Assembly: GCA_009360885.1 (NCBI GenBank)
Contig: SPEL01000001.1
Location: 372,001-436,000, forward strand
Reading direction: 5' to 3'
From: Sphingobium sp.
GTDB lineage: Bacteria; Pseudomonadota; Alphaproteobacteria; Sphingomonadales; Sphingomonadaceae
DNA: 64,000 nucleotides
Shown: in pieces, positions 33,770-64,000 of the stretch
Numbering within the stretch: the first letter of the stretch is position 1
How the letters are laid out: every line of letters begins with the position of its first letter
Program-made: the position numbers and the translations under genes
Notes under the pieces: generated by a model
What the model saw: only the letters and a program-made list of their open reading frames with translations
The model's database searches: none
What the model was told of the DNA's origin: nothing

Positions 33770-34350
33770 AATTTCCAGACACATATTGAACATATAATTG
33801 GTGCCCATAAGGGGTGTAAGAGCGGTTTTGTGTCGTTTCGTCGCGTGGATTGTCATGCTTTCCAATTGGGCATGTCAGGGCGTTTTCTCATCAGGTGAAA
33901 TTCCTGATGATCTGGCAGCAGCTTTCGCCAGCAAGTTGGAATAGGGGGGCAGGTGCGGAGCATATTTCAAACTCGCAAACCGCAATATAATCATGATGTT
34001 GCTGGTGATGTTTGTGAATTTTAAGGTCGTTCTATCCTTGCCCATCATTATGACGGACTTCAGATTTTAGTCACTAAGGTTAGAATCCATTAATTTCGCT
34101 GCCAATGTGGTTCTCCCTTTTCAAGGATAGGGCCTCTGAAAGATATGGAATGGTGAAGTGTTCGTATTTACCGAACACCTGATAGTGGGGGGGCTTCTTC
34201 TCGCAGGATATACAGCTTCATAAACCAGACCATAAGACATCCGCCGATGCCAATAAAGAGCAGGGCGAAGATGTCGTTGGGGAGAGTATGAGCTGTGGTT
34301 TCAGACCGATTCCATGCTTGTCTGTGTTGTGATGTCCAGACAGGTGAGGC
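33770..34350. other. 581-bp gap between attR and the catabolic island
   Basis: No convincing gene, tRNA or repeat was found. The stretch is more AT-rich than its surroundings. The only notable sequence is a minus-strand hydrophobic frame ending at 34168 that lacks a start. The promoter for the GMC gene presumably lies near the right end. Confidence 0.5.
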
Positions 34351-36027
34351 ATGAAAAAATCCGTTTATGATGTAATTGTCATCGGGGCTGGTAGCGCAGG
34401 TTGTGCTGTCGCTGGCAGGCTTGCCTGTGAACCGGGACTGCGTGTTTTACTGATCGAGGCCGGTGGCCGGTCATCGTCGCCCTTGATAAAAGCGCCGGTC
34501 GCATGGCCTCTGGCGGCTATTACCCCCCAATATGGTTGGGGGCTGGAAACAGAACCTGATGCCGCCCTTGCTGGACGCAGGCTCGATCAGCCGCGTGGGC
34601 GTGTGATGGGCGGTACATCTTCCATCAATGGCATGATGGTATCCCGTGGGCATCCGGCGGATTATGATGGCTGGGCCGCGATGGGTCTGGATGGTTGGGG
34701 CTGGCGCGATGTTTTGCCGTATTTCCGCCGGGGAGAGAGAAACTGGCGTGGGACCGGGCAATATCATGGTGGCGATGGCCCATTGAATGTGATCCCGAAT
34801 CCCACAAATCCATCAATTTTCGATGCGATGATCTCTGCGGGACACTCCCTCGGCTATGAGTATAATCCTGATTTTAACGGCGCGGAGCAGGAAGGCTTTG
34901 GCATGCCGGATTTCGCGCAGCGATCGGGGCGCCGGGAGAGTGGTGCAACGGCTTATTTGCGCGATCACGCCGTCCTTAAAAATCTGACGGTAAAACAAGG
35001 GAATGTGTACCGTGTTTTGATTGAAAAGGGGCGGGCCATAGGGGTAGAGATGGCTGCTAAAGGGGGTGTTACCTCTATTCATGCCCCCCAAATCATACTG
35101 AGTGCAGGCGTGTTTGGGTCTCCTCAGTTGCTTCAGCTTTCGGGTGTCGGGCCTGCTGATTTTCTGCTGGGCCATGGCATTGCGCCTGTTGTTAATCTGC
35201 CAGGCGTGGGGCAGAATTTGCAGGATCACCCGATGGTGGTGGCGGGCTATGCTGCGGCGAAGCCTTTGGGGTTTGAGCAGGCGCTGCGATTAGACCGCCT
35301 TGCTAAATCCAGCCTGCAATGGCTGATGGGCAAAGGAGGGCTGCTATCCGATGCCCCCCTATGTGTGCAGGGTTATGTACGGGCGATGGAGGCTAGTGAT
35401 CGGCCTGACACGCAGTTTCAGATTAGTTGTGGCTCATTAATGAGCCGCCCCTGGCTTCCCGGCTGGCGTCGGCCTTCCCCGGACATGTTCGGGGTTGCTG
35501 CGTTGCATTTGCGGCCAGAGGGGCGGGGCAGGGTTATGCTAAGATCGGCGAACCCGATGGAACGGCCTCTCATCCACCTTTCTTTGCTATCCACGGAATA
35601 TGACCGGCAGATGGCCCGTGCGATGTTCCGTTTTATCCGGCGCTTTTTTGCGACACCTGCCATGCAGCCTTTTGTGGCAAGCGAACTGATGCCGGGGCCA
35701 TCGGTTACGACCGACGATGATGTGGATGCGTTTCTGGCGAACACGATATTAAGCGGAGCGCATCAGGTAGGCACCTGTGCCATGGGCGTTGATCCCGCTC
35801 ATGCTGTCGTTGATGCACGCCTGAAGGTGCATGGGGTGGAAGGTCTTAGCGTGGCCGATGCTTCCGTCATGCCGCATATCATCAGCGGAAATACCAGCGT
35901 GCCTGCCATGATGATTGGTGAGCGCTGTGCTGATTTCATTCTGGGCCGTAGCTTTCCAGCGGGCAAAGAAACTGTGTCATCCATCACGCCTCCAGATAGA
36001 GTGAAGGAGGGCGTGTCTAAGCACTAG
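34351..36027 (+). CDS. GMC-family FAD-dependent alcohol oxidoreductase (copy 1)
   Basis: Flavoprotein of 558 residues of the choline dehydrogenase/alcohol oxidase group. The FAD motif GAGSAG is at residues 12-17, then LLIEAGG, a GMC signature (GRVMGGTSSINGMMVSRGHP) around residue 90, LSAGVFGSPQLLQLSGVG (second signature), and the catalytic pair: His in SGAHQVGTCAMG and Asn in SGNTSVPAMMIGE. The family oxidises primary alcohols to aldehydes. In sphingomonads GMC enzymes oxidise the side-chain alcohol of lignin-type dimers, which fits the island; the actual substrate is unknown. It is the first gene right of the integrative element. Confidence 0.92.
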   Translation: MKKSVYDVIVIGAGSAGCAVAGRLACEPGLRVLLIEAGGRSSSPLIKAPVAWPLAAITPQYGWGLETEPDAALAGRRLDQPRGRVMGGTSSINGMMVSRGHPADYDGWAAMGLDGWGWRDVLPYFRRGERNWRGTGQYHGGDGPLNVIPNPTNPSIFDAMISAGHSLGYEYNPDFNGAEQEGFGMPDFAQRSGRRESGATAYLRDHAVLKNLTVKQGNVYRVLIEKGRAIGVEMAAKGGVTSIHAPQIILSAGVFGSPQLLQLSGVGPADFLLGHGIAPVVNLPGVGQNLQDHPMVVAGYAAAKPLGFEQALRLDRLAKSSLQWLMGKGGLLSDAPLCVQGYVRAMEASDRPDTQFQISCGSLMSRPWLPGWRRPSPDMFGVAALHLRPEGRGRVMLRSANPMERPLIHLSLLSTEYDRQMARAMFRFIRRFFATPAMQPFVASELMPGPSVTTDDDVDAFLANTILSGAHQVGTCAMGVDPAHAVVDARLKVHGVEGLSVADASVMPHIISGNTSVPAMMIGERCADFILGRSFPAGKETVSSITPPDRVKEGVSKH

Positions 36028-36121
36028 GGACTGACCCTGAATATCATTTTCATCCCTTGATGCAGCACCAGTCAAAAAGACCAAAAACAGGCTGCACAGG
36101 ACAATAGAGAGAGGATAGTCA

Positions 36122-38455
36122 ATGAAAAATAAGGCTTTTCATGTCTGGCTGGCATGTGGGACGATGATGGCAGGATATGCTGCCTTCCCAACAGCCGTAA
36201 TGGCGCAAAATACTTCCTCAGAGGCAGCGCAGGAAAGGAATAGCAGTCAGGCAACATTGGGTGACATCATTGTCACCGCCCAAAAGCGTCAGCAAACCTT
36301 ACAGGACGTACCAATTGCCGTTTCTGTATTGAGCAGTGAGGCGTTGACGGCGCAGCATGTCAACAGCGTCGAGAGCCTGAATACAGCCGTACCCAATCTG
36401 GTGGTTACGCGTTCTCCGTTTCAGCCCTTCGTGTCTATTCGCGGCCTTGGTTCCGGTGCGGGGACGCGGGCGTTTGAACAATCTGTCGCCATGTATGTCG
36501 ATGGCGTTTATGCCGGGCGCGCCAACCAGTTTCTGAACCCATTTTTTGATGTGGAACGGGTGGAGGTCGTGCGTGGGCCGCAATCGGTGTTATTCGGGGT
36601 GAACGCCATTGCCGGGGCGATTAACGTCGTCAATAAACGCCCGGAGGATAAGCTGGAAGGCTATGTCACAGGCGGATATGAATTTGCCTATGAAGGCTAT
36701 AATATCGAAGGAGGCGTATCTCTTCCTTTGTCCGATACATTTGGCATACGCGTCGCCGGGAAGGTGAACCGGGAGGGCGCTTATCTCAAAAACACGGTGA
36801 CGAACGAAGATGAGCCGCAAACCGATAGTGAAATTGGCCGCATAGTCGCAAGCTGGCGACCTTCATCTGATGTGCGGGTCGATCTTTCCTATGAACATGC
36901 CCATAAGAAGATTGATGGTTCTGCGTTTCAGACAGTTTATCTGCCCGCGCAGATTTTTCCACCAGCGATTGAAGACGGGAAGCTGGATTTAACCAAATCA
37001 ACGCCGGGTACGCCCAATTTTACGCGGATCAAAACGGATAATGTAACGCTGAATATTTCATGGGATGTGGGGGATGCCAATCTCTCATCATCCAGCGGAT
37101 ATTCGCATTATAGTTTCTCTCAGGCGCTGCCGGCGGGGTCTGTACCCATGTATTTCGGCACGGCACTGGCGGCAGAAAAATTCGATCAATTTTATCAGGA
37201 AGTCCGGCTGGCATCTTCGGGCAAGCAATTCATCGATTATATCGTCGGCGCCAGCTATTATCATCAGCGTTCAAAGATCGATCAGGGCGTTGATTTTGAC
37301 TTTAGCGCTTTTGGTGCGTCGGGCGTGACGGCAGGGGTGCGTAATGGCCTTGACCAGAAGACCGATGGGTATTCCGTTTTTGCGCAGGGCACCGTTAACT
37401 TCACCGATCAGTTGAACCTTGTATTGGGCGGGCGTTACAGCTCTATTCTGAAACGTGCTGATTATGTTCTTGCCCCGGCGGCGGCGGGATCACCCCTTGC
37501 TGGATATGCGATTGATATACCCAGCATGTTTGTGCTGAATTCCATCGGCTTTTTCAGCTATCTGGACCCGGCAGATGTAACGACCATGCGCCCGACGACG
37601 ATGGACCGGCGGAGGCGTTTCACCGCCTTTAACCCATCTGTCAGCCTGAATTATAAATTCAGCCCGGAATTGTCAGGCTATGCTAGTTTCACCACGGGCA
37701 CGAAGGCTGGCGGATTTAACGATCAGGAAAAATCAGGGATTGTGCCTGAAAATGGTTTTACGTCCGATGCCTTTTCCTTCAACCGCGAAAAAGCGCATAA
37801 TTTTGAAATTGGCCTGAAGGCGAATACGGGGCAGGTCCGCGCCAATATTGCGGCTTTCTACACCAAATATAAGGACCTTCAGGCGTCGCAAGCCTTGGCC
37901 AATGGCAGTATCTTCACCACCAATGCGGCGTCCGCCACTGCAAAGGGGATAGAGGCCGATGTGACATGGCTGGTTGCACCCGGCTTCACCCTTGGGGCGG
38001 ATGCGGCCTATATTCATGCGCGTTATGATGATTATCCCGGTGCGGGCTGCATCATCACGGTGACGCCGACATCCTGTGTTGACGCTCAGACCAATGCGAA
38101 GGGCGGGAGGCTCGATGGTGTGCCTGAATTTGTAGGCAGCATGAACGCGTCTTATACCTTTGACGTCGGGGATGATTGGGAAATTCGTACCCGCGGGCGT
38201 GTGCATTATAATGATGGCGCGCAGTTTCAGTCTAATCAGGACCCCCTCGACCGGGTGCCGTCTTACACGCTGTTTGATGCGTCCATTGCGTTGGCGCAGC
38301 GTGAAGGCGGATGGAGCATGACATTGTCCGGTAAGAATCTGGGCAACAAAATCTATCGCGGTTTCAGCGCGCCTGCGGCCAATCCGGCCTTTGGGCATCA
38401 ATCCCTCATCATGCCGGGGCGTCAGGTCTATCTCGACCTTCGCTTTGAATTTTAA
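36122..38455 (+). CDS. TonB-dependent outer-membrane receptor (copy A of the island)
   Basis: Receptor of 777 residues. Signal peptide MKNKAFHVWLACGTMMAGYA ending TAVMAQ. The plug has GDIIVTAQKRQQTLQDVPIA (sphingomonad TonB type), VESLNTAVPNL, SIRGLGSG, VYVDGVYAGR-like and VEVVRGPQSVLFG. The barrel ends LDLRFEF with the terminal Phe required for insertion. Family members in this group import aromatic or polymeric substrates rather than only iron chelates. It follows GMC copy 1 and is 12 bases before the NmrA gene, so the three may form one operon that imports and oxidises a substrate. Confidence 0.92.
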   Translation: MKNKAFHVWLACGTMMAGYAAFPTAVMAQNTSSEAAQERNSSQATLGDIIVTAQKRQQTLQDVPIAVSVLSSEALTAQHVNSVESLNTAVPNLVVTRSPFQPFVSIRGLGSGAGTRAFEQSVAMYVDGVYAGRANQFLNPFFDVERVEVVRGPQSVLFGVNAIAGAINVVNKRPEDKLEGYVTGGYEFAYEGYNIEGGVSLPLSDTFGIRVAGKVNREGAYLKNTVTNEDEPQTDSEIGRIVASWRPSSDVRVDLSYEHAHKKIDGSAFQTVYLPAQIFPPAIEDGKLDLTKSTPGTPNFTRIKTDNVTLNISWDVGDANLSSSSGYSHYSFSQALPAGSVPMYFGTALAAEKFDQFYQEVRLASSGKQFIDYIVGASYYHQRSKIDQGVDFDFSAFGASGVTAGVRNGLDQKTDGYSVFAQGTVNFTDQLNLVLGGRYSSILKRADYVLAPAAAGSPLAGYAIDIPSMFVLNSIGFFSYLDPADVTTMRPTTMDRRRRFTAFNPSVSLNYKFSPELSGYASFTTGTKAGGFNDQEKSGIVPENGFTSDAFSFNREKAHNFEIGLKANTGQVRANIAAFYTKYKDLQASQALANGSIFTTNAASATAKGIEADVTWLVAPGFTLGADAAYIHARYDDYPGAGCIITVTPTSCVDAQTNAKGGRLDGVPEFVGSMNASYTFDVGDDWEIRTRGRVHYNDGAQFQSNQDPLDRVPSYTLFDASIALAQREGGWSMTLSGKNLGNKIYRGFSAPAANPAFGHQSLIMPGRQVYLDLRFEF

Positions 38456-38467: not shown

Positions 38468-39406
38468 ATGACGAAAATTGCGATTACCGGGGCATCGGGC
38501 CATTTTGGCCGGGCAACGGCAGAGGCGCTGTTGGCTGTGGTGGCTGCTGAGGATTTGATCCTCATCAGCCGCTCCCCCCAGAAGTTGCAGGATCTGCAAG
38601 AGCAGGGCTGCGTTGTCAGGCAAGGCGATTTTGATGATGGCTATGGTCTGACAGAGGCGCTGCGCGGCGCAGATCGGGTGCTGATGATTAGCGGAACCCG
38701 TGTGGGCTTTCGCGAACCACAGCACCGTAATGCGGTTGAGGCGTCGGTTGCTGCCGGGGTGAAACATATCATCTACACTTCCTTTATCGGGGCGGATGCT
38801 TCCAACCCGTCCATGGCAGTGAAAGACCATATCTTTACCGAAAAGCTGATGCGGGCATCTGGGGTCGATTTTACCTTTCTGCGTAATGCCCAATATTCCG
38901 ATGCTGTGCTGGATGCGATGGGGCCGCTGGCCATAGCATCAGGGCGCATGACCAGCGTTGCCGGTGATGGCCGCATGGCGTTTGTTTGCCGTGATGACTG
39001 TGTGGCCGCTGCGGTGGCCGTGCTGACGGGGGATGCGCATGAAGGCAAGGTTTATGGTATTAGCGGGCCAGAGCTTTTGTCTTATCGTGATGTTTGCTCC
39101 CTGATTTCAGAAATTTCGGGAACACCGATTGATTTTGAACTGACGGATGTGGATGGCCTCTATGCGATATTTGATGCATTAGGTGTGCCGCGCCAGCCCG
39201 TGGATGATTTAACGGTCAATAACTTCCCGTGGAATTCTGATGATATGGTGAGTTTTGAAGTGGCCGTCCGTGACGGGCATTTCGCCATTTTAACCGATGA
39301 TGTGGCGAAATTAACCGGTCACAGGCCTCGTTCATTACGGGATTTGCTTATCAGCCATAAGCAGGAATTGTTGGAAAGGGCGGGGGCTGTGGAAGGGGCT
39401 GGATGA
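38468..39406 (+). CDS. NmrA/QorB-like NAD(P)-binding reductase
   Basis: Atypical SDR of 312 residues. The Rossmann motif is ITGASGHFGRATAEALL, with ISRSPQKLQDLQEQG as the NADP-type follow-on and GVKHIIYTSFIGAD replacing the classical YxxxK site. C-terminal segments (YGISGPELLSYRDVCSLISE) match the quinone-oxidoreductase-2 type. Such proteins reduce quinones or side-chain double bonds or act as redox sensors. AAGGAG lies before the ATG, 12 bases after the receptor stop. Confidence 0.85.
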   Translation: MTKIAITGASGHFGRATAEALLAVVAAEDLILISRSPQKLQDLQEQGCVVRQGDFDDGYGLTEALRGADRVLMISGTRVGFREPQHRNAVEASVAAGVKHIIYTSFIGADASNPSMAVKDHIFTEKLMRASGVDFTFLRNAQYSDAVLDAMGPLAIASGRMTSVAGDGRMAFVCRDDCVAAAVAVLTGDAHEGKVYGISGPELLSYRDVCSLISEISGTPIDFELTDVDGLYAIFDALGVPRQPVDDLTVNNFPWNSDDMVSFEVAVRDGHFAILTDDVAKLTGHRPRSLRDLLISHKQELLERAGAVEGAG

Positions 39407-39412
39407 AGCCTT

Positions 39413-40327
39413 TTATTGCGGTTGGGCAACCCATTCGCGAACCATCTGAGACAGGTTGAGTATTGCCGGATCCTGCGCGCCGCGTGCAGAAAAGGCCTCT
39501 CTCAACTGTAAGGGGGGCAATGGGAAATTAATAGGCAGCCGAATAAAATGATTATGGGGGAGCTGTTCGCCGGGCTTCCCCGCATACATGCAAGCAAAAC
39601 AGTTTGTTTGTTGCAAGGCGTTGAGAACCAGACCATAGCCGTCACTTTCAAGGGCTGTCTCTATCTGCCCAAGCCCGCACCTTGCCATTGCCTCATCCAC
39701 AGCCGCACGGGCATGGCCATGTGGCCCAAGGCGAATGGTGCGATAGTCCATTAAATCTGTCGTCGAAACCTCAGTTTTCTGTGCCAGTGGATGATTGGGT
39801 GATGTATATATTGCTAAAGGCTCGTAGCTGATGAATTGGGATGGAAACAGGCCGGGATCATCCACCGCAAGAATATACGCAATATCGATTATATTATTAT
39901 TGAGGCGCTGGGAAATATCTTCATAGCTCAGTGCTTCCAGACAAATATTCATGTTGATTTGCGGGTTGTCATTGCGGAACTGATCCAGTTTTCCTTGCAA
40001 ATCACGAATGACAAAATCCGGCGTGGCCATGGTGAGCCGCCGTCGCGCGGCCCCCTTACGGTCGGCTGAAAATTCCCATTCCATCGCCGACAGTTCGCTT
40101 AATATCCGCAGGGCGCGGGTGTAAATTTTCTGCCCTGCCGGTGTGACCTGCGCGGGTGCGCCGGGGCGTCGTTCAAACAGACGGTAACCGAGCTGTTGTT
40201 CAAGCGATTGAATATGATCGCTGATGGTGACCTGCGAAATGCCAATTTGTTCGGCCGAGCGGCGAAAGCTTCCCAGTTCCACAATCTGGACGAATATTTC
40301 CAGCTGCCTGATCGTAATAGCGCTCAT
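39413..40327 (-). CDS. LysR-type transcriptional regulator
   Basis: Regulator of 304 residues. The N-terminal winged helix is MSAITIRQLEIFVQIVELGS, FRRSAEQIGISQVTISDHIQ and SLEQQLGYRLFERRPG. Residues 90-300 form the co-inducer-binding domain. It is divergent from the SnoaL gene with a palindrome between them and convergent with the NmrA gene. It is the likely activator of the SnoaL-to-O-demethylase series, responding to an aromatic compound; this follows from layout. Confidence 0.92.
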   Translation of the reverse strand: MSAITIRQLEIFVQIVELGSFRRSAEQIGISQVTISDHIQSLEQQLGYRLFERRPGAPAQVTPAGQKIYTRALRILSELSAMEWEFSADRKGAARRRLTMATPDFVIRDLQGKLDQFRNDNPQINMNICLEALSYEDISQRLNNNIIDIAYILAVDDPGLFPSQFISYEPLAIYTSPNHPLAQKTEVSTTDLMDYRTIRLGPHGHARAAVDEAMARCGLGQIETALESDGYGLVLNALQQTNCFACMYAGKPGEQLPHNHFIRLPINFPLPPLQLREAFSARGAQDPAILNLSQMVREWVAQPQ

Positions 40328-40511: not shown

Positions 40512-40907
40512 ATGAAAAATTCTTACATGCCTCAGGAAGAGGCCAACCTTCGCACTGTTCGTGCCGTTTATGATGAAGTGCTGGAACCGCTGGATTCTAC
40601 GCAGGTCGATAAATGGTTCCGGCAGGATTATATCCAGCACAGCCCGATGGCAGAAACCGGCGCGGATGGGCTTAAATGCTTTTTGAACTGGGCGAAGGCG
40701 CAGTCACCGGATGCCCATCATGACGTCAAACGGATGTTCGCCGACGGGGACTATGTGATTGCCCATGTGCATGTGGTGATTGAACCGGGAACGGCTGGCA
40801 ATGCGGTGATTGATATTTTCCGCTTAGAAGATGGCTTAATCGCGGAACATTGGGATGCGTCGCAGCCTGTCCCAGCGCAATCGGCCAATAATAATGGTGT
40901 ATTCTGA
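40512..40907 (+). CDS. SnoaL/NTF2-like protein
   Basis: A 131-residue NTF2-fold protein: EEANLRTVRAVYDEVLEPLD, VDKWFRQDYIQHSPMAETG, GLKCFLNWAKA, DVKRMFADGDYVIAHVHVVI and VIDIFRLEDGLIAEHWDASQ. The IQHSP and EHWD stretches are typical of the SnoaL-like predicted ester-cyclase/aldol-condensation group; members act as isomerases, hydrolases or decarboxylases on small rings. It opens the rightward series that ends in the O-demethylase, under probable LysR control. An alternative start is ATG 40527. Substrate unknown. Confidence 0.85.
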   Translation: MKNSYMPQEEANLRTVRAVYDEVLEPLDSTQVDKWFRQDYIQHSPMAETGADGLKCFLNWAKAQSPDAHHDVKRMFADGDYVIAHVHVVIEPGTAGNAVIDIFRLEDGLIAEHWDASQPVPAQSANNNGVF

Positions 40908-41006: not shown

Positions 41007-41519
41007 ATGCAGCCTTATTTTGCCGAAACATCACGACCGGATGAGCCAAGGTTTGAATTCCTCTTTGAAATCTCCCTTGAATGGGGTGGGCTTCAGAATA
41101 TTTCTAACATGCCCAGTGGCCATGGGCGCGGTGCCACTTATATTGAAAAAGGCATTGTGCGTGGTCCCCATTTGAACGGTGTCATCTGCCCGCGCAGCGG
41201 CGCGGATTGGGCGCAGTTTCGTCCCGATACAGTCCTAGGACTTGACGCGCGCTATATGCTGGAGGCCGATGACGGCACGCTGATCCTGATGCACAACAAA
41301 GGTTATCTCGCCCCACGTGGCGATGATGTGTTGTCGCGCATTCAGGCGTGGATGTTCCGTGATGGGCCAGAGGTGCCGTTTGAAGAATATTACTTACGCG
41401 TAACCCCGACTTTTGAGGTGGAAACAGGCCGTTATGACTGGCTGATGCGGACCATCGTGGTGGGCATCGGTAGCCGCCAGAAGGTTGGTAACACAATCCG
41501 CTATTACGCTTTGCTCTGA
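41007..41519 (+). CDS. DUF3237 family protein
   Basis: A 170-residue protein with [20 protein letters not shown], a [16 protein letters not shown] loop, [20 protein letters not shown] and a C-terminal [18 protein letters not shown] segment, the DUF3237 (UPF0311) pattern: a small beta-barrel protein without an assigned common reaction. It is encoded between SnoaL and purU in the catabolic series. An enzymatic role on an aromatic side chain is possible. AGGAG precedes the ATG. Confidence 0.85.
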
Positions 41520-43934: not shown

Positions 43935-43992
43935 ACCCCATAAACACAATGAAGCGCCTGATCGTATGGCGCAAATAGTTGGAGAGAGAATA

Positions 43993-51624: not shown

Positions 51625-51652
51625 AACATCTATTGCATCCGAATTACAAAAC

Positions 51653-53387: not shown

Positions 53388-53435
53388 ACTCTAATAATAA
53401 AATCCGTTCAACTGCGGAAATGTTGGAGAGAGGGT

Positions 53436-55919: not shown

Positions 55920-56329
55920 TGAGTAAAATTACACAATCCTTCGTCTTTTTGTCTGCAACGCTTGTTCTAGCGTCCGTTGCTTATGCTCAGGGCGGTGGCG
56001 ATAAGGCACAGCCTTCGGCGAAGGCGAGCCAAATGGGCAATACCGGTATGAATGCACTGCAGGACCGCACCGCATCCACCCCCGCCGGGCGGCTCTTCGT
56101 TGAAAAATGCGCGATGTGTCACCGTCAATTTGGTATGGGAACGGTGTTGCTGGGACGGCGGATGCCGAAGGATCAGGCCATGCTGGAACCGCGCAAAGAT
56201 CTGACCAAAGAATTCGTCATCATGGCCGCCCGACAAGGTATTGGCAATATGCCGCGTATTCCCAGAGGTGAGGTTTCAGACGCTGAGTTGGATCAGATCG
56301 CTACTTATCTGGCACGTGGGAAGAAATAA
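55919..56329 (+). CDS. Cytochrome c subunit partner of the VAO-type flavoprotein
   Basis: A 136-residue c-type cytochrome. Signal peptide of about 23 residues ending AYAQ; heme motif CAMCH at residues 64-68; the axial Met is likely M111 (GIGNMPRIP). It fits the PchC/EhyA/PinH class, which sits in a complex with the VAO-like subunit and carries electrons out. Coupled to both neighbours by one-base overlaps (TGATG, TAATG), a sign of equal production. Periplasmic by its signal peptide; the flavoprotein has none visible, as in other members of this group where partner-assisted export is discussed. Confidence 0.92.
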   Translation: MSKITQSFVFLSATLVLASVAYAQGGGDKAQPSAKASQMGNTGMNALQDRTASTPAGRLFVEKCAMCHRQFGMGTVLLGRRMPKDQAMLEPRKDLTKEFVIMAARQGIGNMPRIPRGEVSDAELDQIATYLARGKK

Positions 56330-56724
56330 TGGCCAGTCTTGTAAACAGGCGCCGCGTGCTGGCGGCTATCGGGACGTCCGGGCTGATTGTCGGGGCAGAG
56401 ATGGGGGTAGGACATGCCATGTTGGCTCCTTCGCCCGAAGATCAGGGCAGCGTGCTGGTTGATGGCCGGTTTTTACCCGCCGAACAGCGGCAGATTGCTT
56501 CGATCCTGGCCGACCGGAAAAGGACATCGCTTGATCGCGAAATCGTGTGGCAATGGCGGCGTGATCTTCTGGACAAGCTGATGCGCGCCGGCGCGCTGGA
56601 AATAATGACGCGATGGGATAACAGCCTGATTTTCACCGGATTGGCGCGAGAAATAAGGGCCAATGTCGTCCGCCGTAGAATCGCGGGCAACATATATCAT
56701 TTGCAGATAACGAAACCGGCCTGA
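56329..56724 (+). CDS. Unknown Tat-signal protein in the flavocytochrome operon
   Basis: A 131-residue protein whose start overlaps the cytochrome stop by one base. The N-terminus NRRRVLAAIG plus a hydrophobic stretch to about residue 33 is a twin-arginine type signal. The rest (GSVLVDGRFLPAEQRQIASI, DRKRTSLDREIVWQWRRDLL, GALEIMTRWDNSLIFTGLAR) is unlike any family I know. Tight coupling suggests a subunit, chaperone or export partner of the flavoprotein; a Tat passenger could carry the folded flavoprotein across the membrane by hitchhiking, which would explain its missing signal. This is inference. Confidence 0.75.
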   Translation: MASLVNRRRVLAAIGTSGLIVGAEMGVGHAMLAPSPEDQGSVLVDGRFLPAEQRQIASILADRKRTSLDREIVWQWRRDLLDKLMRAGALEIMTRWDNSLIFTGLAREIRANVVRRRIAGNIYHLQITKPA

Positions 56725-56797
56725 CCATTGCCCATGCTGAATGGAGCGCACGCATATTCCTTGGCGCTGGTTATCTAGTTATGAAGTGAGAAAAGTG

Positions 56798-58012
56798 ATG
56801 AAAGCAGGTAGCTGGCCGTCGATTATTGGTATCTATTTATTCGGGGTATGCGGGGCTGCAACCGTCAGTAAAATCATCCCCCTAACCAGCGACATTGGCA
56901 ATGATTTTGGTCTGGCGGTAGCGAATTTTGGCTGGCTTGTGGCGTTGATTGCTGTGCCTGCGGCCATCTTTTCTTTGCCTAGCGGGCTGGTCGTTGACAG
57001 GCTGGGGGCGAAAACCGTTTTGTTACTGGCGGCTGCTCTGGGATGCGTGGCTAATATAATATATTATTACGCGCCGTCTTTGCTGGTCGTCCAAATCGCC
57101 CGCCTGATGGAAGGGCTGGCCATTGTCCATATCTATACGGCCGGCCCGGCGATGCTGATGGTTTCAACCGAAGGAACCAAGCGCACAAGGGCAATGACAT
57201 TATGGTCTACTTATGCCCCGGTTGGCACGGCCCTTGGTCTTGTCGTGGGGGGACTTTTTTCCCAGAGCGATGCGTGGCGTAATACTTTCATTGTTCATGG
57301 CATATTGTATATTGCTGCTGCTTTGCTGGGCGTTCTGCAGCCCACCCTCCCGGTGGCTGCGTCCAATGCAATGTCCACGTTGAAGGATAAGTTCGCCGAT
57401 CTGGGCAGCGCCTTTTTACGACCTATGCTCTTGATGCTGGCGGCGGCCTTTTTCCTGATGGTTAGTATGGGATTGGGAGCCAATGTGACCTTCCCCAATT
57501 ATCTGGCATCTGCGCATCATATATCGGTGCATAGCGCATCGACAATGGTGGCCAGCACAACATTGGCGATGATATTGGGGTCTTTGGGTGTTGGCGTTAT
57601 CTTGCCAAGAGGTATCCGACCCGGAATATTATTCGCCTGTATTGCAGTGGGTGGCCTGATTGCCGGGACTTTGTGTTTCCTGCCTTCTGTAAGTGTAGAA
57701 GCAAGATATGGTGCCCTGATTGGCTGGTTCATCCTGACGGGGGCAGCATTGGCAACGATCATGGCCACGCTTCCGGTTGTGGCGGACCCGGCCCGGCCTG
57801 GTGCGGCAGCGGCGCTTATCAATTTTGCAGGCGCTGTTGCGACGTTCCTCAACCCTCCTTTGTGGCTGGGTATTGCCGCAACGGGACAGTGGACGCCTTT
57901 CATCGGGCTGCTCGCCATTGGCTGGACATTAGCGGTGATATTATTGTGGGGCGCTATTTTGTTGGCCATGCGGGCAAAAGCAGCAAATGCAAAGGCACAG
58001 CCTGAAACATAA
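56798..58012 (+). CDS. Major facilitator superfamily transporter
   Basis: A 404-residue membrane protein with about 12 hydrophobic helices. SLPSGLVVDRLGAKTVLLLA is a form of the MFS loop 2-3 motif (G-x3-D-R-x-G). RAMTLWSTYAPVGTALGLVV and the C-terminal half are ordinary for the CP/NarK-like group. It probably imports an aromatic acid or exports a product across the inner membrane. Start ATG 56798 with GAGAAAAG upstream is taken; ATG 56741 gives a soluble leader with no clear ribosome site. It ends before a strong terminator. Confidence 0.88.
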   Translation: MKAGSWPSIIGIYLFGVCGAATVSKIIPLTSDIGNDFGLAVANFGWLVALIAVPAAIFSLPSGLVVDRLGAKTVLLLAAALGCVANIIYYYAPSLLVVQIARLMEGLAIVHIYTAGPAMLMVSTEGTKRTRAMTLWSTYAPVGTALGLVVGGLFSQSDAWRNTFIVHGILYIAAALLGVLQPTLPVAASNAMSTLKDKFADLGSAFLRPMLLMLAAAFFLMVSMGLGANVTFPNYLASAHHISVHSASTMVASTTLAMILGSLGVGVILPRGIRPGILFACIAVGGLIAGTLCFLPSVSVEARYGALIGWFILTGAALATIMATLPVVADPARPGAAAALINFAGAVATFLNPPLWLGIAATGQWTPFIGLLAIGWTLAVILLWGAILLAMRAKAANAKAQPET

Positions 58013-58132: not shown

Positions 58133-58567
58133 TTACTGGGCGCTGTTCAGTAAGGGGGCCATCCGTTTTTTGGCGATGCCCGGCAACTTTGCCCCGGCAG
58201 CCTTCGCTTCCGCCAGATTGGGAGACTTATTTCCCACCTGCACCAGCGCGATCATCCCCATGGCATAATGCGGAAGGCATTTAATACCATAAACGCCCGG
58301 CTTATCGAATTTAACCGAAATGGCCTGATTAATTTTACCTTTAAATGCAGTGGCCCCTTTCGGCATCATCGTGGGGATGCTTTCCGCATTATGGCTGGGA
58401 TTTGTAGGCAGAAATTTAACGCTGTCGCCCGGCGCGATTTTGACCATCGCCGGGCTGAAAATCATCATCCCTTCCGGCCCGGAATTCAACATCTTTATCG
58501 TCACTTCTTTCGCATGGGCGGGGCTGGCCAGAGAGAGGGCAGCAGCAAGGCATAACAGAACACGCAT
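58133..58567 (-). CDS. Pseudoazurin (periplasmic type 1 copper protein)
   Basis: A 144-residue cupredoxin. The signal peptide is MRVLLCLAAALSLASPAHA. In the precursor the copper ligands are H59 (NPSHNAES), C97, H100 and M105 (KCLPHYAMGM), the spacing of pseudoazurins. A typical function is electron transfer in the periplasm. It may accept electrons from the island's cytochrome c. The start at ATG 58567 is favoured over the 58660 frame because of the clean signal sequence. A perfect palindrome lies about 76 bases upstream. Confidence 0.9.
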   Translation of the reverse strand: MRVLLCLAAALSLASPAHAKEVTIKMLNSGPEGMMIFSPAMVKIAPGDSVKFLPTNPSHNAESIPTMMPKGATAFKGKINQAISVKFDKPGVYGIKCLPHYAMGMIALVQVGNKSPNLAEAKAAGAKLPGIAKKRMAPLLNSAQ

Positions 58568-58642
58568 TATTGAAAATCCTCTGTCATTCGTCGTTACATG
58601 GGGGGGGAGGGGGAAGAGGGGCGGCCCTTCACCCGCTGTTTC

Positions 58643-58661
58643 AATGACGATGATCGTCATT
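58643..58661. promoter_or_regulatory. 19-bp perfect palindrome upstream of pseudoazurin
   Basis: AATGACGAT-G-ATCGTCATT, a perfect 9-1-9 palindrome in the gap between the GMC gene stop and the pseudoazurin start. It is a probable operator. Confidence 0.55.
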
Positions 58662-58740: not shown

Positions 58741-60357
58741 TTACCCATGATTTAGGGCCTTGCCTATATGATCGCTCGCTTTTTCGCCAATCATGATGGC
58801 GGTAGCATTTGTATTGGCTGACACTAGTTCCGGCATGATGGAACAATCCGCCACCCAAAGGCGGTTGAGTCCTTTGACCTGTAAATCGGGTGAAACAACG
58901 GCCTTGTCATCACTGCCCATGCGGCAACTGCCGACCGGGTGGAAACAGGAGATTGCCTGTTGCCTGATCCATTGTTTCAATGCGTCGCCCTCTATATTCG
59001 GGCCGGGTTTTGCTTCGGCAATGACATGATCGGCCATGGGGCGCTGGGCCATGATGTTGCGAGCGAGGCTGACTCCCGTCATCAGCAGATCAACATCTTC
59101 GCTACCGCCCAATAGCTGATGCGTGATGACGGGCGATGCCATGGGGTCAGAGGAGCGCAGCCGGATAGAACCGCGTGCCTGAGGATGCAGGGCGCACACC
59201 AGCATGCTTATCATCGGGTCTTTGGGCATGACCCTTTCGCCATTGGGCAGAATGTCAAAGGAGAAAGGGCTGAAGGCCAGTTGCAGAGAGGCCGCGGCTC
59301 TTTTCTCAGGGATTTGCACCATGGCCTGTGCATTGGAAATGGCGGCGGTTATCATCCCCCTGCGACGGAAGAGATAATCGAGCACGGCCTTGGCCGGGCG
59401 AAGTCCGCGCAAATCGGAATTGATTGTGCGCCCCCGCACCCGCCAGGCAACATTGGCGCCGACATGGTCCTGAAGATTAGCGCCAACGCCCGGTGAATCG
59501 ATAATAGGCGTTATGCCTGTGGCTTGCAGATGGTCTGCCGGGCCAATGCCGGACAGCATGAGCAGCTTGGGCGATGCGATGGCCCCCGCCGCGAGGATAA
59601 CGCCCTGTTTCGCGTAGATAGTGCGCACGGTGCCATCATTCGCGATGATTTCAACCCCGGTCGCGGCTCCATGCTCGATCAGAATTTTACGGACGATTGT
59701 CTGGTCGCATATTTTCAGGCGGCCATTATAATTTTTCCCCCGAACATACGCATCGGCGGCGCTCCACCTGTTGCCATTCCTCTGCGATGCCTGCACCCGA
59801 TCAACACCGATGGCGTTATATCCATCTCCATTCAGGTCAGCGTTGCGGGCAATTCCTGCATGAACGGCGCTTTGCATCCATATGTCAGTCAGCGGGTAAT
59901 CGAGCCTGCTTTCCGATATATGCAGCGGCCCGTCATTGCCATGAAAGGGGCCGCCCCGCGGGTTGCTCTCCATACGGCGGAAAAAGGGCAGGCAATCTGC
60001 ATAGCTCCACCCTGTTGCCCCGGCCTTTTCCCAATTATCATAATCTTCCGCATGGCCGCGAATATACATCATGCCATTAATGGCACTGCCGCCGCCTAAT
60101 ATACGCCCCGCTGGCCAGAAACCCGGCTGGCCGTTGGTGGATGCGTCCGGCTCCGTCGGATACATCCAGTCATAGGCGGGGTTCATAACCAGTTTTGCCA
60201 CCAACGCAGGAATATGCGTGTTGCGATCCGGCGCGGCCTTGCCCGCTTCGATCAGCATTATAGTGAGATCACCCCGTTCAGCCAGACGGCCAGCCAGCGC
60301 ACAACCTGATGATCCGCCGCCAATGATTATGATATCCGGTTGATCGTACATCGACAT
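58741..60357 (-). CDS. GMC-family FAD-dependent alcohol oxidoreductase (copy 2)
   Basis: Second GMC enzyme of the island, 538 residues from ATG 60357. FAD motif GGGSSG at residues 13-18, GRILGGGSAINGMMYIRGHA, LAAGAIASPKLLMLSGIGPA, and the catalytic His (CFHPVGSCRMG) and Asn (SANTNATAIMIGE). It oxidises primary alcohols by family. The two copies share the family plan but differ in sequence throughout, so they may serve different stereoisomers or steps, as enantioselective GMC pairs do in sphingomonad lignin-dimer breakdown (recalled). It lies downstream of the fusion gene; upstream frames to 60414 overlap that gene. Confidence 0.92.
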   Translation of the reverse strand: MSMYDQPDIIIIGGGSSGCALAGRLAERGDLTIMLIEAGKAAPDRNTHIPALVAKLVMNPAYDWMYPTEPDASTNGQPGFWPAGRILGGGSAINGMMYIRGHAEDYDNWEKAGATGWSYADCLPFFRRMESNPRGGPFHGNDGPLHISESRLDYPLTDIWMQSAVHAGIARNADLNGDGYNAIGVDRVQASQRNGNRWSAADAYVRGKNYNGRLKICDQTIVRKILIEHGAATGVEIIANDGTVRTIYAKQGVILAAGAIASPKLLMLSGIGPADHLQATGITPIIDSPGVGANLQDHVGANVAWRVRGRTINSDLRGLRPAKAVLDYLFRRRGMITAAISNAQAMVQIPEKRAAASLQLAFSPFSFDILPNGERVMPKDPMISMLVCALHPQARGSIRLRSSDPMASPVITHQLLGGSEDVDLLMTGVSLARNIMAQRPMADHVIAEAKPGPNIEGDALKQWIRQQAISCFHPVGSCRMGSDDKAVVSPDLQVKGLNRLWVADCSIMPELVSANTNATAIMIGEKASDHIGKALNHG

Positions 60358-60410
60358 GAGGTGGTTATCCTTCATGGTAGAATGGGTGTTGAATGATGTG
60401 GGGTGGGGTT

Positions 60411-61634
60411 TCATGCGAAATGAAGCCGCCGATACTTACCCCGGAAAAACAGCAAAGGGTCTCTGTGCGGTTCAAAGCGGGCCCGTAAAACCTGACCGAC
60501 CAATATTTTATGATCGCCGCCTTCGTGCATCGCATATTTCCGACATTCAAAGCTCACCAAGGAATGCGTCAGAATGGGGACATTTTTATCCCAGCATTCC
60601 CATTCAATCCCGGCAAAGCGATCTTCGCCTTTTCTCGCGAATAAATTGGATATTTCCTGCTGCCCGATATGCAGAATGTTAACGGCAAAATACTCATTTT
60701 CCTCAAATGCGGATAATGACCCTGCTGTTGCAGAAGGGCAGACCAGCAATAAGGGCGGGTCAAGCGACACAGACGTAAAGCTGTTTGCAGTTAGCCCAAC
60801 CGGGCTTCCGTCCGGGGCGCGGGACGTTATGACCGTGATGCCGGTTGCAAAGCCGCCCAGCAAATTGCGCAGCAGGCGCGGGTCTGACCCTTCTACATAC
60901 TCTATGGGCTGGCGTGGGGCCTGACGCTCCATAAACTCAATTAATAAAGCGCCTAGCTGTTCTGTATCACTATCAATCAGCAGCTGCCCGTTACCAGTGA
61001 TGTGTGCGATTTCAGATGGTTTAATCAGGGCCGAAAGATTGCGGATTTCCTCTTCGCTGGTATGCCGGGACAAAGCCCCGCGAACCAGCAAAGTGGGAAC
61101 GGAGATTTTCCGGGCGGCCAGCGCAAGGCGGCTCTTTAAGGCAGTTGGGTCGATCTGATCGAGTATAGAAGGGTCAAAGACCGACGCAGGGTTTAAGCGA
61201 GCCTGATCGATTAGCAGGTCGGCGGTTTGACGGATTCGGTCGGGGTCAAAATCATGGCTGGCTTCGATGAGGACCAGTGCGGAGACAAGATCCGGTTCGC
61301 CTTCTCCCGCTGCGAGCAAAGCCACCCATGCGCCCAATGTGGCACCAATGACCACAGGCCGTGAACTCAGATTACGCAGTAATTCCCTTAAATCTGCGAC
61401 GAAATAATCTATGCCATAGCTGCCATCTGGTGACGGACCATTTTCACCATGTCCGCGCATTTCAAGCTTGATGACATAGCGCCCGGCAGAGGCGAGGTCA
61501 TTTGCGGCGGCTTCCCATGCATCGGGATGTAATGTCGCCCCCGGAACAATGATGACGGGGGGATTTATCTGATTGCCATAGGTCGTGCTTATCAGCTCTA
61601 TCCCGCCAAAACCGCGGCATATTTCCTTAGACAT
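60411..61634 (-). CDS. Fusion of a degenerate alpha/beta hydrolase and an HpaC-type flavin reductase
   Basis: A 407-residue two-domain protein. Residues ~10-240 have an alpha/beta hydrolase fold: PPVIIVPGATLHPDAW, LEMRGHGENGPS, VVIGATLGAW, ISVPTLLVRGALSRHTSEEE, HITGNGQLLIDSDTE. The nucleophile position is T99 (GATLG), the acid position falls at R190, and the last-His position at Q217, so all three triad residues are replaced. Residues ~250-405 are a flavin reductase: NLLGGFATGITVITSRAP, GLTANSFTSVSLDPPLLLVC, and the GDH motif at 373-375. The reductase should supply FADH2 to the HpaB-type enzyme. The first domain may be structural, or bind substrate. AGAGGAA precedes the ATG, and a palindrome lies 24-41 bases before it. 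Confidence 0.85.
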   Translation of the reverse strand: MSKEICRGFGGIELISTTYGNQINPPVIIVPGATLHPDAWEAAANDLASAGRYVIKLEMRGHGENGPSPDGSYGIDYFVADLRELLRNLSSRPVVIGATLGAWVALLAAGEGEPDLVSALVLIEASHDFDPDRIRQTADLLIDQARLNPASVFDPSILDQIDPTALKSRLALAARKISVPTLLVRGALSRHTSEEEIRNLSALIKPSEIAHITGNGQLLIDSDTEQLGALLIEFMERQAPRQPIEYVEGSDPRLLRNLLGGFATGITVITSRAPDGSPVGLTANSFTSVSLDPPLLLVCPSATAGSLSAFEENEYFAVNILHIGQQEISNLFARKGEDRFAGIEWECWDKNVPILTHSLVSFECRKYAMHEGGDHKILVGQVLRARFEPHRDPLLFFRGKYRRLHFA

Positions 61635-61842: not shown

Positions 61843-63312
61843 ATGATACCTAATGGCGTTAACGTCGCTCATCCCGACAAATTGTTCATCGGGGGCCAAT
61901 GGGTCGATTCAACAGGCGATGATTCGTTTGATCTGGTCGATCCCAATAACGAAACCGTCACGGGGCGTATTGTTGCCGCCAATGCTGCGGATATGGACCA
62001 GGCTGTCACGGCTGCGCGCAAAGCCTTTGATGATGGCCCATGGGGCGATTTTTCACCGGCCCAGCGCAGCAAATATATCGCCGCCATGGGTGAAGAACTG
62101 AAACGCCGCGAACCGGAACTGGCCCGTGCCTTTACGGCGCAAGTAGGCGGTCTGGCCAGCTTTGCCCCACAGATGGTTGGCGGGGCAACAATGGTGTTCA
62201 ATAATATCGCTGGCCTGTGTGATACCTTCCCCTTCGCGGAAAGGCGGCCCAGTATGATGATTGATACTGCCATTGTTACGCGCGAACCGGCCGGGGTTGT
62301 CGTCGCTATTGCGCCATGGAATGCCCCTTATTCCATCATGTCGTCCAAAGTAGCTTATGCTTTGGTGGCGGGGTGTACCGTGATTATGAAACCGTCACCC
62401 GAAACCCCATTGGAAGCCTATATAATTGCCGAGGCAGCCGAAGCGGCCGGTATTCCCGCCGGGGTTGTTAATCTGGTTTGCGGTGGGCGGGACGCGTCTG
62501 ACCATCTGGTGAATAATCCCGGTGTTGATAAAGTCAGCTTTACGGGGTCCACTATCGCCGGAAAACGTATCGGTGAGGTATGCGCAGGCCGTATTGCCCG
62601 CTGTACCTTGGAACTGGGCGGTAAATCTGCGGCCATCATCCGCGATGATTTCCCGATAGAAGCCGCAGCGGCCATATTGGGCAACACGATTACAATGATG
62701 AGTGGGCAGGTTTGCGCCATGCTCAGCCGTGCCATTGTTACGAAAAGCCGCCATGACGAACTGGCCGATGCTATCGCCAAAGTAATGCAAGGCGTTAAAA
62801 TTGGCCATAGCGATGCACCCGATACGCAATTGGGCCCGGTGGCGATGAAGCGGCAGCTTGAACGGGTGGAGGACTATATCGAAGATGGCCGCAAAACGGC
62901 TGATCTGGTAACCGGAGGTAGACGCCCTGCCCATATGAACAAGGGCTATTTCATTGAACCGACCCTGTTTGCCAATGTCGATAATCAATCCCGCATCGCG
63001 CAGGAAGAAATTTTCGGCCCTGTCCTTGCCCTTATTCCTGCCGAAGATGAAGCCGATGCCCTGCGGATCGCCAATGAAAGCAATTTTGGGCTGAACGGCG
63101 CGGTGCTGACTAATGATGCCGACGCTGCTTATCATATCGCGCGCAAAATGCGGACTGGCGGTGTTGGGCAAAATGGCCTCCGGATGGAGTTTAACCTTCC
63201 CTTTGGCGGCTTTAAGCAATCGGGCATTGGGCGCGAAGGTGGAGAAGAGGGGCTTTGGTCCTATTTAGAGACGAAGACGATATTGCTGGATGCAACACCG
63301 ACATCTCTCTGA
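61843..63312 (+). CDS. NAD(P)-dependent aldehyde dehydrogenase
   Basis: Oxidises aldehydes to acids. The 489 residues match the family: IAPWNAPYSIMSSKVAYALV, MKPSPETPLEAYIIAEAAEA, VSFTGSTIAGKRIGEVCA, the catalytic Glu in LELGGKSA, and Cys291 in SGQVCAMLSRA. QEEIFGPVLALIP and FGGFKQSGIGREGGEEGL close the domain. It would take the aldehydes made by GMC oxidases or by stilbene cleavage. It is divergent from the fusion gene with a 208-base gap between starts. GGAGAG precedes the ATG. Confidence 0.93.
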   Translation: MIPNGVNVAHPDKLFIGGQWVDSTGDDSFDLVDPNNETVTGRIVAANAADMDQAVTAARKAFDDGPWGDFSPAQRSKYIAAMGEELKRREPELARAFTAQVGGLASFAPQMVGGATMVFNNIAGLCDTFPFAERRPSMMIDTAIVTREPAGVVVAIAPWNAPYSIMSSKVAYALVAGCTVIMKPSPETPLEAYIIAEAAEAAGIPAGVVNLVCGGRDASDHLVNNPGVDKVSFTGSTIAGKRIGEVCAGRIARCTLELGGKSAAIIRDDFPIEAAAAILGNTITMMSGQVCAMLSRAIVTKSRHDELADAIAKVMQGVKIGHSDAPDTQLGPVAMKRQLERVEDYIEDGRKTADLVTGGRRPAHMNKGYFIEPTLFANVDNQSRIAQEEIFGPVLALIPAEDEADALRIANESNFGLNGAVLTNDADAAYHIARKMRTGGVGQNGLRMEFNLPFGGFKQSGIGREGGEEGLWSYLETKTILLDATPTSL

Positions 63313-63409: not shown

Positions 63410-63450
63410 GGACAGGCGGCGCTATGGCCTGTCCATATTGGTGTTTTTTG
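63410..63450 (+). terminator. Hairpin terminator after the ALDH gene
   Basis: GGACAGGC (63410-63417) pairs with GCCTGTCC (63427-63434), followed ten bases later by TTTTTTG. It lies between the ALDH gene and the convergent receptor gene; the rest of this gap shows nothing. Confidence 0.6.
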
Positions 63451-63561
63451 ATTGCCACTGCTGCCTTACTCTGGCGGCATGATCGGGATAAGACAGCATG
63501 GAACAGACAGGCCAGCCAGTCATAACCAAGTCAGGAATGATGGTCTGGCCTATATTGTTTT

Positions 63562-64000
63562 TTAGCGAAGAGTGGCGCGTACTGTGATGCCATAGGTTCT
63601 TGGTGGCCGAATATCCGCATAAAATAATGTAGGATCGCCGCCAATTTGCCGTGGCAGCGAAAATGGGTAACGATAGCCACCTGAATAAATGGCCTGATTG
63701 CCGATATTGCGGACCCAGCCTGTTACTGAAAACCCGTGTCGTGACTCAAATGTAAGGTCAGCGTCAAATGCGGCATAACCATCATCATAGGCCGATGAGA
63801 TATAATCGGGGCTCAGATACATGCTGCTGGCAAATTTCATGGAGGCGGCGGGTATAATATGATCTCCGCTGCTCAGTTCGATTGGATAGTCATATTTGAC
63901 GGAACCGGTCCATTTGGGCGCATGGGGCAGAGGCATCCCTGAACAATCAATCCTGTTCGTCGCAAGGGCCGGGTTTATAGGCGTCAATGGGCCAATGGCG
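63562..64000 (-). CDS. TonB-dependent receptor, C-terminal part (5' end off the window)
   Basis: The last ~146 residues of an outer-membrane receptor. The frame stays open to the window end, so there is no start here. LPHAPKWTGSVKYDYPIELS, FASSMYLSPDYISSAYDDGY, FDADLTFESRHGFSVTGWVR, NIGNQAIYSGGYRYPFSLPR and YADIRPPRTYGITVRATLR are typical final barrel strands. The last residue is Arg rather than the usual aromatic. It is the third receptor of the island. Confidence 0.88.
   Translation of the reverse strand, partial: AIGPLTPINPALATNRIDCSGMPLPHAPKWTGSVKYDYPIELSSGDHIIPAASMKFASSMYLSPDYISSAYDDGYAAFDADLTFESRHGFSVTGWVRNIGNQAIYSGGYRYPFSLPRQIGGDPTLFYADIRPPRTYGITVRATLR

Follow-up and report, generated by a model that had tools for sequence, protein, structure and literature searches.

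The window analysed here is a stretch of 64,000 nucleotides from Sphingobium sp. (assembly GCA_009360885.1, contig SPEL01000001.1; C1:372001-436000 of a 2.93-Mb genome that is 79.6% complete), and the source genome falls in a genus group that includes the lignin-degrading model strain Sphingobium sp. SYK-6. The right-hand part of the window, from ~34.3 kb, is occupied by a catabolic block whose protein families were called by Pfam and NCBIfam scans of the encoded proteins. An earlier note on this DNA had described the block as a 30-kb island for a methoxylated phenolic dimer. The block is a real, partly conserved catabolic island, which likely serves dimer catabolism, but at ~37 kb in total it overshoots the window end by ~7 kb. 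Its genes within the window are:

34351-36027, + strand: GMC oxidoreductase 1, PinY/PhcC family, which would oxidise a side-chain alcohol
36122-38455, +: TonB-dependent receptor 1
38468-39406, +: NmrA-family reductase, PinZ-like, 51-53% identical to the putative PinZ of MD-1 and SYK-6 and 57% to the NmrA protein of G427
39413-40327, -: LysR regulator, divergent from the following operon
40512-40907, +: SnoaL/NTF2-like protein of a broad superfamily with LdpA and PcfL among its members
41007-41519, +: DUF3237 protein, candidate PinX-like decarboxylase, 75% identical to G427
41552-42406, +: PurU formyl-tetrahydrofolate deformylase, which would recycle one-carbon units for the GcvT-like enzyme
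42448-43110, +: NAD_binding_10 protein, with homologues that adjoin lactonase, VAO and cytochrome c genes in loci L096, G209, L077 and L118
43107-43934, +: SDR 1
43966-45303, +: GcvT-type protein of Rhodococcus type, candidate O-demethylase or O-demethylenase, presumably tetrahydrofolate-dependent
45373-45933, +: MarR regulator
45990-48398, -: TonB-dependent receptor 2, in a module kept in L076 and L078
48458-49933, -: lignostilbene dioxygenase (LSD) 1, NOV2 equivalog, PinU-like
50066-50860, -: SDR 2, part of the conserved module
50944-51660, -: TetR regulator, divergent from hpaB; the TetR and HpaB genes are paired in other loci too
51714-53180, +: HpaB-type FADH2-dependent phenol monooxygenase
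53310-54323, +: SMP-30/gluconolactonase-like lactonase (SGL)
54366-55919, +: VAO/PCMH-family flavoprotein with His381 (covalent FAD type) and no Asp at the N5 site
55919-56329, +: c-type cytochrome (CAMCH), the start of which overlaps the VAO stop (TGATG)
56329-56724, +: small twin-arginine-motif protein, third gene of the flavocytochrome operon
56741-58012, +: MFS transporter
58133-58660, -: pseudoazurin (TIGR02375, 154.5 bits; cut-off 109.85)
58741-60414, -: GMC oxidoreductase 2, part of the conserved module
60411-61634, -: fusion of an alpha/beta-hydrolase and a flavin reductase, likely reductase partner of HpaB
61843-63312, +: aldehyde dehydrogenase (ALDH)
63562-64000, -: TonB-dependent receptor 3, truncated where the window ends and complete as L003:5562-7856

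The gene classes that the earlier note had named were all recovered by the scans: two GMC oxidases, an MFS carrier, the VAO-type flavoprotein with its cytochrome c, pseudoazurin, ALDH, LSD, HpaB, flavin reductase, a GcvT/LigM-like protein, PurU, the SMP-30 lactonase and TonB receptors. Two of these need restating, because the third receptor lies within the window only as a fragment from 63562, and the flavin reductase forms the C-terminal part, one half, of an alpha/beta-hydrolase fusion whose gene is 7 kb away from hpaB on the other strand. To these are now added the NmrA, DUF3237, SnoaL/NTF2-like, NAD_binding_10 and two SDR proteins, the regulators and an adjoining tRNA-Lys element; NmrA and DUF3237 say most about the likely pathway. 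Past the window end the block continues with the remainder of receptor 3, a second LSD (L003:7915-9393), a long MarR protein that is the fourth regulator after LysR, MarR and TetR, a DesA/LigM-like protein and an esterase; beyond the esterase follow an ORF without a Pfam match and then gcvH and gcvP. The second LSD has Arg in place of the phenol-binding Lys134 of characterised LSD enzymes. The SGL domain of the lactonase starts at residue 55, so that the true start may lie downstream of the one called.

Our reading rests mainly on a comparison with Novosphingobium rhizosphaerae LY and its pathway for pinoresinol. As described in the part of the report drawn on here, six genes, pinZYXWVU, are required for pinoresinol: pinZ encodes a reductase, pinY a GMC enzyme, pinX a DUF3237 protein, pinW a flavoprotein with the coupled cytochrome pinV, and pinU a member of the LSD family; pinU and pinZ are coupled, and pinX, pinW and pinV form one operon (PMC12607616). 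By Pfam and NCBIfam the island holds at least one homologue of every one of these families (NmrA, GMC, DUF3237, VAO, cytochrome c and LSD). The NmrA protein was assigned to the PinZ family through SYK-6 and Novosphingobium MD-1. In MD-1 an LSD gene overlaps the NmrA gene by GTGA, as reported for LY pinU/pinZ, and the MD-1 NmrA protein is 73% identical to its closest SYK-6 counterpart (at 766 kb), compared with 73.3% between the PinZ proteins of LY and SYK-6 (PMC12607616, in part). Both the window LSD1 (724 bits) and the MD-1 LSD (840 bits) pass the NOV2 equivalog NF053780, whose cut-off is 650 bits. In an alignment LSD1 retains the Tyr and Lys for which phenol-binding roles are given in the portion of the LSD literature used here (PMC8191317). 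The LSD, NmrA and DUF3237 genes are consecutive in G427, of the Novosphingobium group. In a DUF3237 tree, from which same-locus rows were dropped and in which two duplicate SYK-6 rows were kept, the window protein falls within a set of 40 rows that has VAO- and NmrA-linked members, with a support of 86, below star level.

These likenesses suggest that the island is a mosaic for the catabolism of β–β lignans of the furofuran, pinoresinol type by an LY-like route, a reading to which, with the substrate inferred from gene content, we give a probability of about one half. The TonB receptors would import the dimer, the NmrA reductase would open one furan ring, as PinZ does, and a PinY-like GMC enzyme would oxidise the alcohol so freed. 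The DUF3237 protein would then decarboxylate the product and open the second ring, in the manner of PinX. The flavoprotein may next oxidise the benzylic carbon to give a quinone methide, passing electrons to cytochrome c and perhaps to pseudoazurin (PinWV- or PinAB-like), after which the NOV2-type dioxygenase would cut the resulting conjugated double bond, as PinU would, and ALDH would oxidise the aldehydes released. HpaB with the flavin-reductase fusion could hydroxylate the aryl group or cleave at its ipso position, the lactonase could open a lactone, and GcvT with PurU could carry out O-demethylation or O-demethylenation. End products would pass to LigB-type ring cleavage encoded elsewhere. 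That ring cleavage lies outside the island had been proposed before and agrees with what was found: the scanned island proteins contain no classical ring-cleavage domain, and the genome has three LigB-type (PF02900) genes outside the island. The proposal of a methoxylated phenolic dimer is likewise supported, and a lignan fits best, given a homologue of every LY pin family; the stilbenes and phenylcoumarans that the earlier note had placed beside lignans are less likely, and a stilbene-like compound would more likely be formed along the pathway than serve as its substrate.

The neighbourhoods of related flavoprotein genes were compared in named genomes scanned with a 19-sequence VAO alignment, taking the best 80 of 359 relatives as ranked by likeness to the window VAO. 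Each locus reached at most 10 kb either side of VAO, for 1.53 Mb over the 80 loci, several of which are short contigs; co-occurrence counts required 60% query cover, and locus-by-locus comparisons used looser cuts, so that their counts differ. NmrA was present in 45 of these 80 loci, LSD in 46, both in 38, ALDH in 36, DUF3237 in 24 and SGL in 17. Nine whole genomes of ~35 Mb together, such clusters and the window itself included, gave 15 NmrA matches, a rate that predicts less than one in 1.53 Mb, so that the observed 45 exceeds chance, though the comparison is rough because different search programs supplied the two figures.

Two other genomes share the second module of the island (TetR, HpaB, lactonase, VAO, cytochrome and MFS, together with SDR, LSD, TonB receptor and GMC), and a third has part of it. 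The nearest layouts, with the homologues of GMC2, LSD1, TonB receptor 2, SGL, VAO, cytochrome c, MFS, HpaB, TetR and SDR2 at 54-75% identity, are those of a metagenome-assembled genome of the Sphingomonadales (L076) and Sphingobium jiangsuense (L078); an 11-kb contig (L075) has SGL-VAO-cytochrome c and HpaB-TetR at 61-85% identity. In L096 and G209 the lactonase-VAO-cytochrome genes are joined to NAD_binding_10, SDR, NmrA and GMC genes, and these gene sets tie both halves of the island together, although no locus among those compared has both halves entire. Portions of the island reappear as neighbourhoods in genomes across the Sphingomonadales. The earlier statement that this is not a described locus stands for the exact combination, of which no match was found. 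Each half does recur in part, however, and the pathway of LY has been in print since September 2025. What is new is the combination of genes and the links drawn here; the enzyme kinds are already known.

In a VAO tree made after the removal of six duplicate rows, the window protein belongs to a starred 18-row set. Sixteen of these rows, the window counted, are lactonase-linked, as compared with 20 of 103 rows overall. The lactonase label needs five changes on this tree, which shows the linkage to be clustered but not unique.

A number of observations weigh against an LY-like route. Orthology with LY was judged through MD-1 and SYK-6 as bridges rather than by direct comparison with the LY proteins, and the window NmrA, at 51% and 53% identity to the MD-1 and SYK-6 proteins, does not reach the orthologue level of 73.3%. 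The window VAO belongs to a lactonase-linked clade, probably not that of LY, and is 46-48% identical to the VAO of DUF3237-VAO-cytochrome c operons (five Novosphingobium-group loci, 5/13 of L022-L034), so its reaction may differ from that of PinW. The gene order and strands also differ from those of LY, since NmrA and LSD1, which are on opposite strands, are separated by 9 kb, and ~13 kb lies between DUF3237 and VAO. Only VAO and the cytochrome gene are coupled within the island; with neither the pinU-pinZ coupling nor a pinX-pinW-pinV operon present, we do not class the island as a pinUZXWV cluster, only as one that may work like it. Beyond the LY set it has HpaB, lactonase, GcvT/PurU, pseudoazurin, MFS and TonB receptor genes, of which HpaB, lactonase and GcvT are without a place in the LY pathway. 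Furthermore, SYK-6 carries a PinZ-type gene and, 2 kb from it, a DUF3237 gene, together with a DUF3237-VAO-cytochrome c operon, LSDs and GMCs, and yet, according to the part of the LY report used here, it does not grow on pinoresinol and halts at lariciresinol (PMC12607616). The presence of the same families, scattered as they are in SYK-6, is thus no proof of the pathway.

The rest of the island's own genome bears on the substrate as well. A second cluster, on C3 at ~130-155 kb (L035-L037), contains GMC, VAO, GMC, SnoaL, SDR, DUF3237, ALDH, LSD, GMC, NmrA, cytochrome and VAO genes, with one of the LigB-type genes beside it (C3:132404), and groups with the common sphingomonad version. The partial redundancy of the island with this cluster is our main reason for thinking that the island's substrate may differ from plain pinoresinol, and it too counts against the route as set out above. 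A third VAO neighbourhood, on C4 at ~389-398 kb, has LSD, cytochrome, GMC and ALDH genes.

The HpaB and lactonase genes lead to the main rival of the LY-like route, which we regard as unlikely, namely oxidative breakdown of the lignan as in Pseudomonas SG-MS2. Here the VAO/cytochrome c pair would hydroxylate the benzylic carbon of the still intact lignan. Ipso hydroxylation by HpaB with its flavin reductase would then break the aryl-alkyl bond, yielding a lactone along with a (methoxy)hydroquinone, and the SMP-30 protein would open that lactone; NmrA and DUF3237 would serve another branch. A lactone product is said to have been obtained in the SG-MS2 work. Of four residues of the Thermus enzyme that we take to have roles in HpaB, the island protein keeps Arg100, Tyr104 and His142 and has Ala in place of Thr198. 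HpaB enzymes usually hydroxylate ortho rather than ipso, which argues against the scheme.

The gene associations point both ways. The lactonase-linked position of the window VAO would suit such a route, as would the company kept by HpaB, SGL, VAO, cytochrome c and TetR in L075, L076 and L078, joined in the last two by MFS. All nine HpaB copies checked at 63% identity or more have a VAO gene within 3 kb; six of the nine came from HpaB searches, and the copies in L075, L076 and L078 are not independent because those loci were picked through VAO. However, LSD1 and GMC2 belong to the same conserved module without having a role in the SG-MS2 scheme, no further island homologue lies in the 20-kb stretch around the more distant HpaB of G696 (47%), and HpaB is absent from 14 of the 17 lactonase loci among the best 80, some of them short contigs. 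The genome, 80% complete, also yielded no intradiol dioxygenase (PF00775). With a threshold of E 1e-110, HpaB turned up in 6/392 genomes of the order and 2/398 of the phylum, the own genome included in both; at 286 bits the island protein falls below the 480-bit cut-off of the NCBIfam equivalog for 4-hydroxyphenylacetate 3-monooxygenase.

PinAB, the pinoresinol hydroxylase of SG-MS2 and Burkholderia SG-MS1, resembles the island in pairing a VAO-type flavoprotein with a translationally coupled cytochrome (PMC12997858, PMC12607616, PMC11148156), and the island's phenol monooxygenase and lactonase would suit the proposed chemistry, a likeness that is drawn from second-hand descriptions. A review, as far as it was available, places a putative ipso-hydroxylase after PinA (PMC12997858), and SG-MS2 products are described as reaching protocatechuate and methoxyhydroquinone (PMC12607616, in part). 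The SG-MS2 scheme as set out in the same portion of the review is without the reductase, DUF3237 and LSD genes that the island has (PMC12997858).

Close HpaB relatives occur in a further type of cluster. In SYK-6, MD-1, G376 and N. humi the order is TonB receptor, LSD, TetR, flavin reductase, HpaB, VAO, VAO, cytochrome and GMC, followed in SYK-6, G376 and N. humi by ALDH; the MD-1 stretch ends before that point. The N. humi copy is plasmid-borne. The SYK-6 cluster, at ~1.200-1.216 Mb, shares with the island a TonB receptor, LSD, TetR, flavin reductase, HpaB (69%), VAO, cytochrome c, GMC and ALDH. In contrast to the island, no lactonase, NmrA or DUF3237 gene was seen in it, it has two VAO genes, and its LSD, probably LSD3 (SLG_11300) as estimated from position and tag spacing, passes the other lignostilbene equivalog rather than NOV2. 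The flavin reductase adjoins HpaB in clusters of this type, which supports the island's fusion protein as the reductase of its HpaB. Fusions of this kind (60411-61634 and those of L178-L182) have Thr at the usual nucleophile position of the alpha/beta-hydrolase.

The flavoprotein, with a cytochrome c gene of its own (CAMCH) and no Asp at N5, has the marks of a cytochrome-dependent VAO/PCMH dehydrogenase. In the VAO alignment His381 corresponds to His387 of VAD, the residue of covalent FAD attachment, and Gly147/Asn148 occupy VAD positions 150/151, so that the window protein is without the Asp that a published table, in the part consulted, lists for oxidases at the N5 site (PMC7617285). The third gene of the operon starts at the cytochrome stop (TAATG) and encodes a protein with no Pfam match, whose mature domain is predicted confidently but gives no decisive match to anything. 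Its twin-arginine motif is invariant in 16 aligned rows, made up of the window and 15 of the 24 loci examined (among them L075, L078, L081, L099, L110, L112 and L133), and these cover lactonase, NmrA and DUF3237 contexts; in the other nine loci the script found no such ORF or a different one. No signal peptide was seen by eye in the flavoprotein, which makes it possible that the twin-arginine protein carries it through the twin-arginine translocation (Tat) system; that this protein is a Tat carrier or accessory for the flavoprotein is our conjecture.

The GcvT-type protein, which the earlier note had called a LigM-type O-demethylase, belongs to the right family but is far below the LigM (188 of 580 bits) and DesA (201 of 800 bits) equivalog cut-offs. 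When 199 genomes of the family were searched at E 1e-60, the own genome alone passed, with this protein and two paralogues (37-38%). The nearest relatives in a plasmid collection are Rhodococcus proteins (47-48%): on a plasmid of R. erythropolis R138 (L203) the gene lies beside ALDH, VAO, PurU, P450 and a catechol-type dioxygenase with maleylacetate reductase, and on one of R. koreensis R85 (L204) beside NmrA (37%) and PurU. The island protein shares the GcvT family with the tetrahydrofolate-dependent demethylenases and demethylases SesA, BrdA, LigM and DesA (PMC5547118), and its gene stands in one run with purU; it is 35-38% identical to the DesA-like paralogues compared. SesA is a lignan demethylenase for which the same source lists R81, H82, R100, R179, H225, E189, Y221 and D95. 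Matched by numbering rather than by alignment of the SesA sequence itself, plain offsets fail at the last four positions, and a two-residue shift gives agreement at 7/8, His108 standing at the Asp95 position. Tyr232 (SesA Tyr221) is Lys in the three DesA-like paralogues compared, and Arg94 (SesA Arg81) is Lys in all five other sequences compared. Several of the listed residues occur in DesA-like paralogues too, and Arg81 is described as not kept in BrdA demethylenases (PMC5547118, in part). The residue pattern is at most a hint of demethylenase kinship.

The literature considered, as far as it was available, holds two aerobic bacterial pinoresinol routes, one of them only partly described (PMC12607616, PMC12997858). 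A hybrid third lignan route, which we think improbable, would begin with demethylation or demethylenation of the whole dimer by the Rhodococcus-type, SesA-like enzyme. Reductive opening through NmrA and oxidative opening through VAO/HpaB/lactonase would follow, and then the NOV2 cut, with the flavoprotein carried over the inner membrane by the twin-arginine protein through Tat. Its substrates would be methylenedioxy or permethylated furofurans, for example sesamin.

The left edge of the block is sharp, and just beyond it lies an integrative element of 8.2 kb (25547-33775), identified as tRNA-integrated by its integrase and by the attachment (att) repeats at the tRNA 3' end:

25547-25598, +: attL, the 3' end of tRNA-Lys (the tRNA itself at 25517-25592)
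29642-33595, -: element genes, encoding DUF3987 (29642-31156), an AlpA-like HTH_17 protein (31370-31693) and a tyrosine integrase (32261-33595)
33724-33775, +: attR, a 52-bp, 92% copy of the tRNA-Lys 3' end, which bounds the island on the left

The catabolic block begins immediately to the right of attR, outside the att pair; the element genes adjoin the island and are no part of the pathway. The GC content of the block (0.536 from ~34.3 kb) is lower than that of window positions 1-25592 (0.589) and of the element (0.60 over 25.6-33.6 kb). In abutting a mobile element the island differs from the LY pin cluster, beside which none was reported (PMC12607616). To the right of attR, a 119-bp stretch (33958-34076) resembles window positions 395-513 in reverse at 75%, and the pair is perhaps a decayed mobile repeat.

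The att site and the GC step would fit an island that had gathered several unrelated aromatic pathways at an integration hotspot, for instance one for alkylphenols or alkaloids that uses VAO, HpaB and GcvT, alongside a separate dimer route. The four regulators, one of them past the window, the Rhodococcus plasmid on which a GcvT relative stands beside PurU, VAO, P450 and a catechol-type dioxygenase, and the lack of any compared locus with both blocks entire point the same way. We nevertheless doubt this explanation strongly, as genes of both block types occur together in L096 and G209, and NmrA and LSD are each near VAO in over half of the best 80 loci.

Least probable, in our judgement, is a pathway for β-5 dimers (phenylcoumarans such as dehydrodiconiferyl alcohol, DCA), in which the GMC enzyme would oxidise the alcohol, DUF3237 would decarboxylate and LSD would cleave the stilbene. 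GMC, DUF3237, LSD and NTF2-like proteins are indeed the enzyme kinds of DCA routes, but NmrA and VAO are without a role in DCA use in the portion of the review used here (PMC12997858). The two DUF3237 copies at 997 kb of SYK-6 form two branches, both outside the 40-row set of the window protein, to which they are 40-41% identical. We infer that these copies are phc genes from the estimated position of LSD7 (SLG_09440), which lies within ~5 kb of phcCD and phcFGH (PMC8191317, in part). The tree position of the window DUF3237, together with the NmrA and VAO genes, makes a phenylcoumaran substrate less likely. LSD1 is moreover of the NOV2 type, whereas LsdD/NOV1 is the main DCA-stilbene enzyme in N. 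aromaticivorans, where NOV2 is not excluded.

With the island, the C3 cluster and the C4 neighbourhood, the organism looks equipped for lignin- and lignan-derived dimers. An LY-like route for β–β lignans would bring homologues of the LY set and a module of HpaB, lactonase and flavocytochrome together in one block, a compact candidate set for the valorisation of lignans and lignin. The island also ties to one theme genes that had been orphans, namely the HpaB-VAO-LSD cluster of SYK-6, the NOV2-type LSD beside a PinZ-type reductase, and the twin-arginine protein of flavocytochrome operons.

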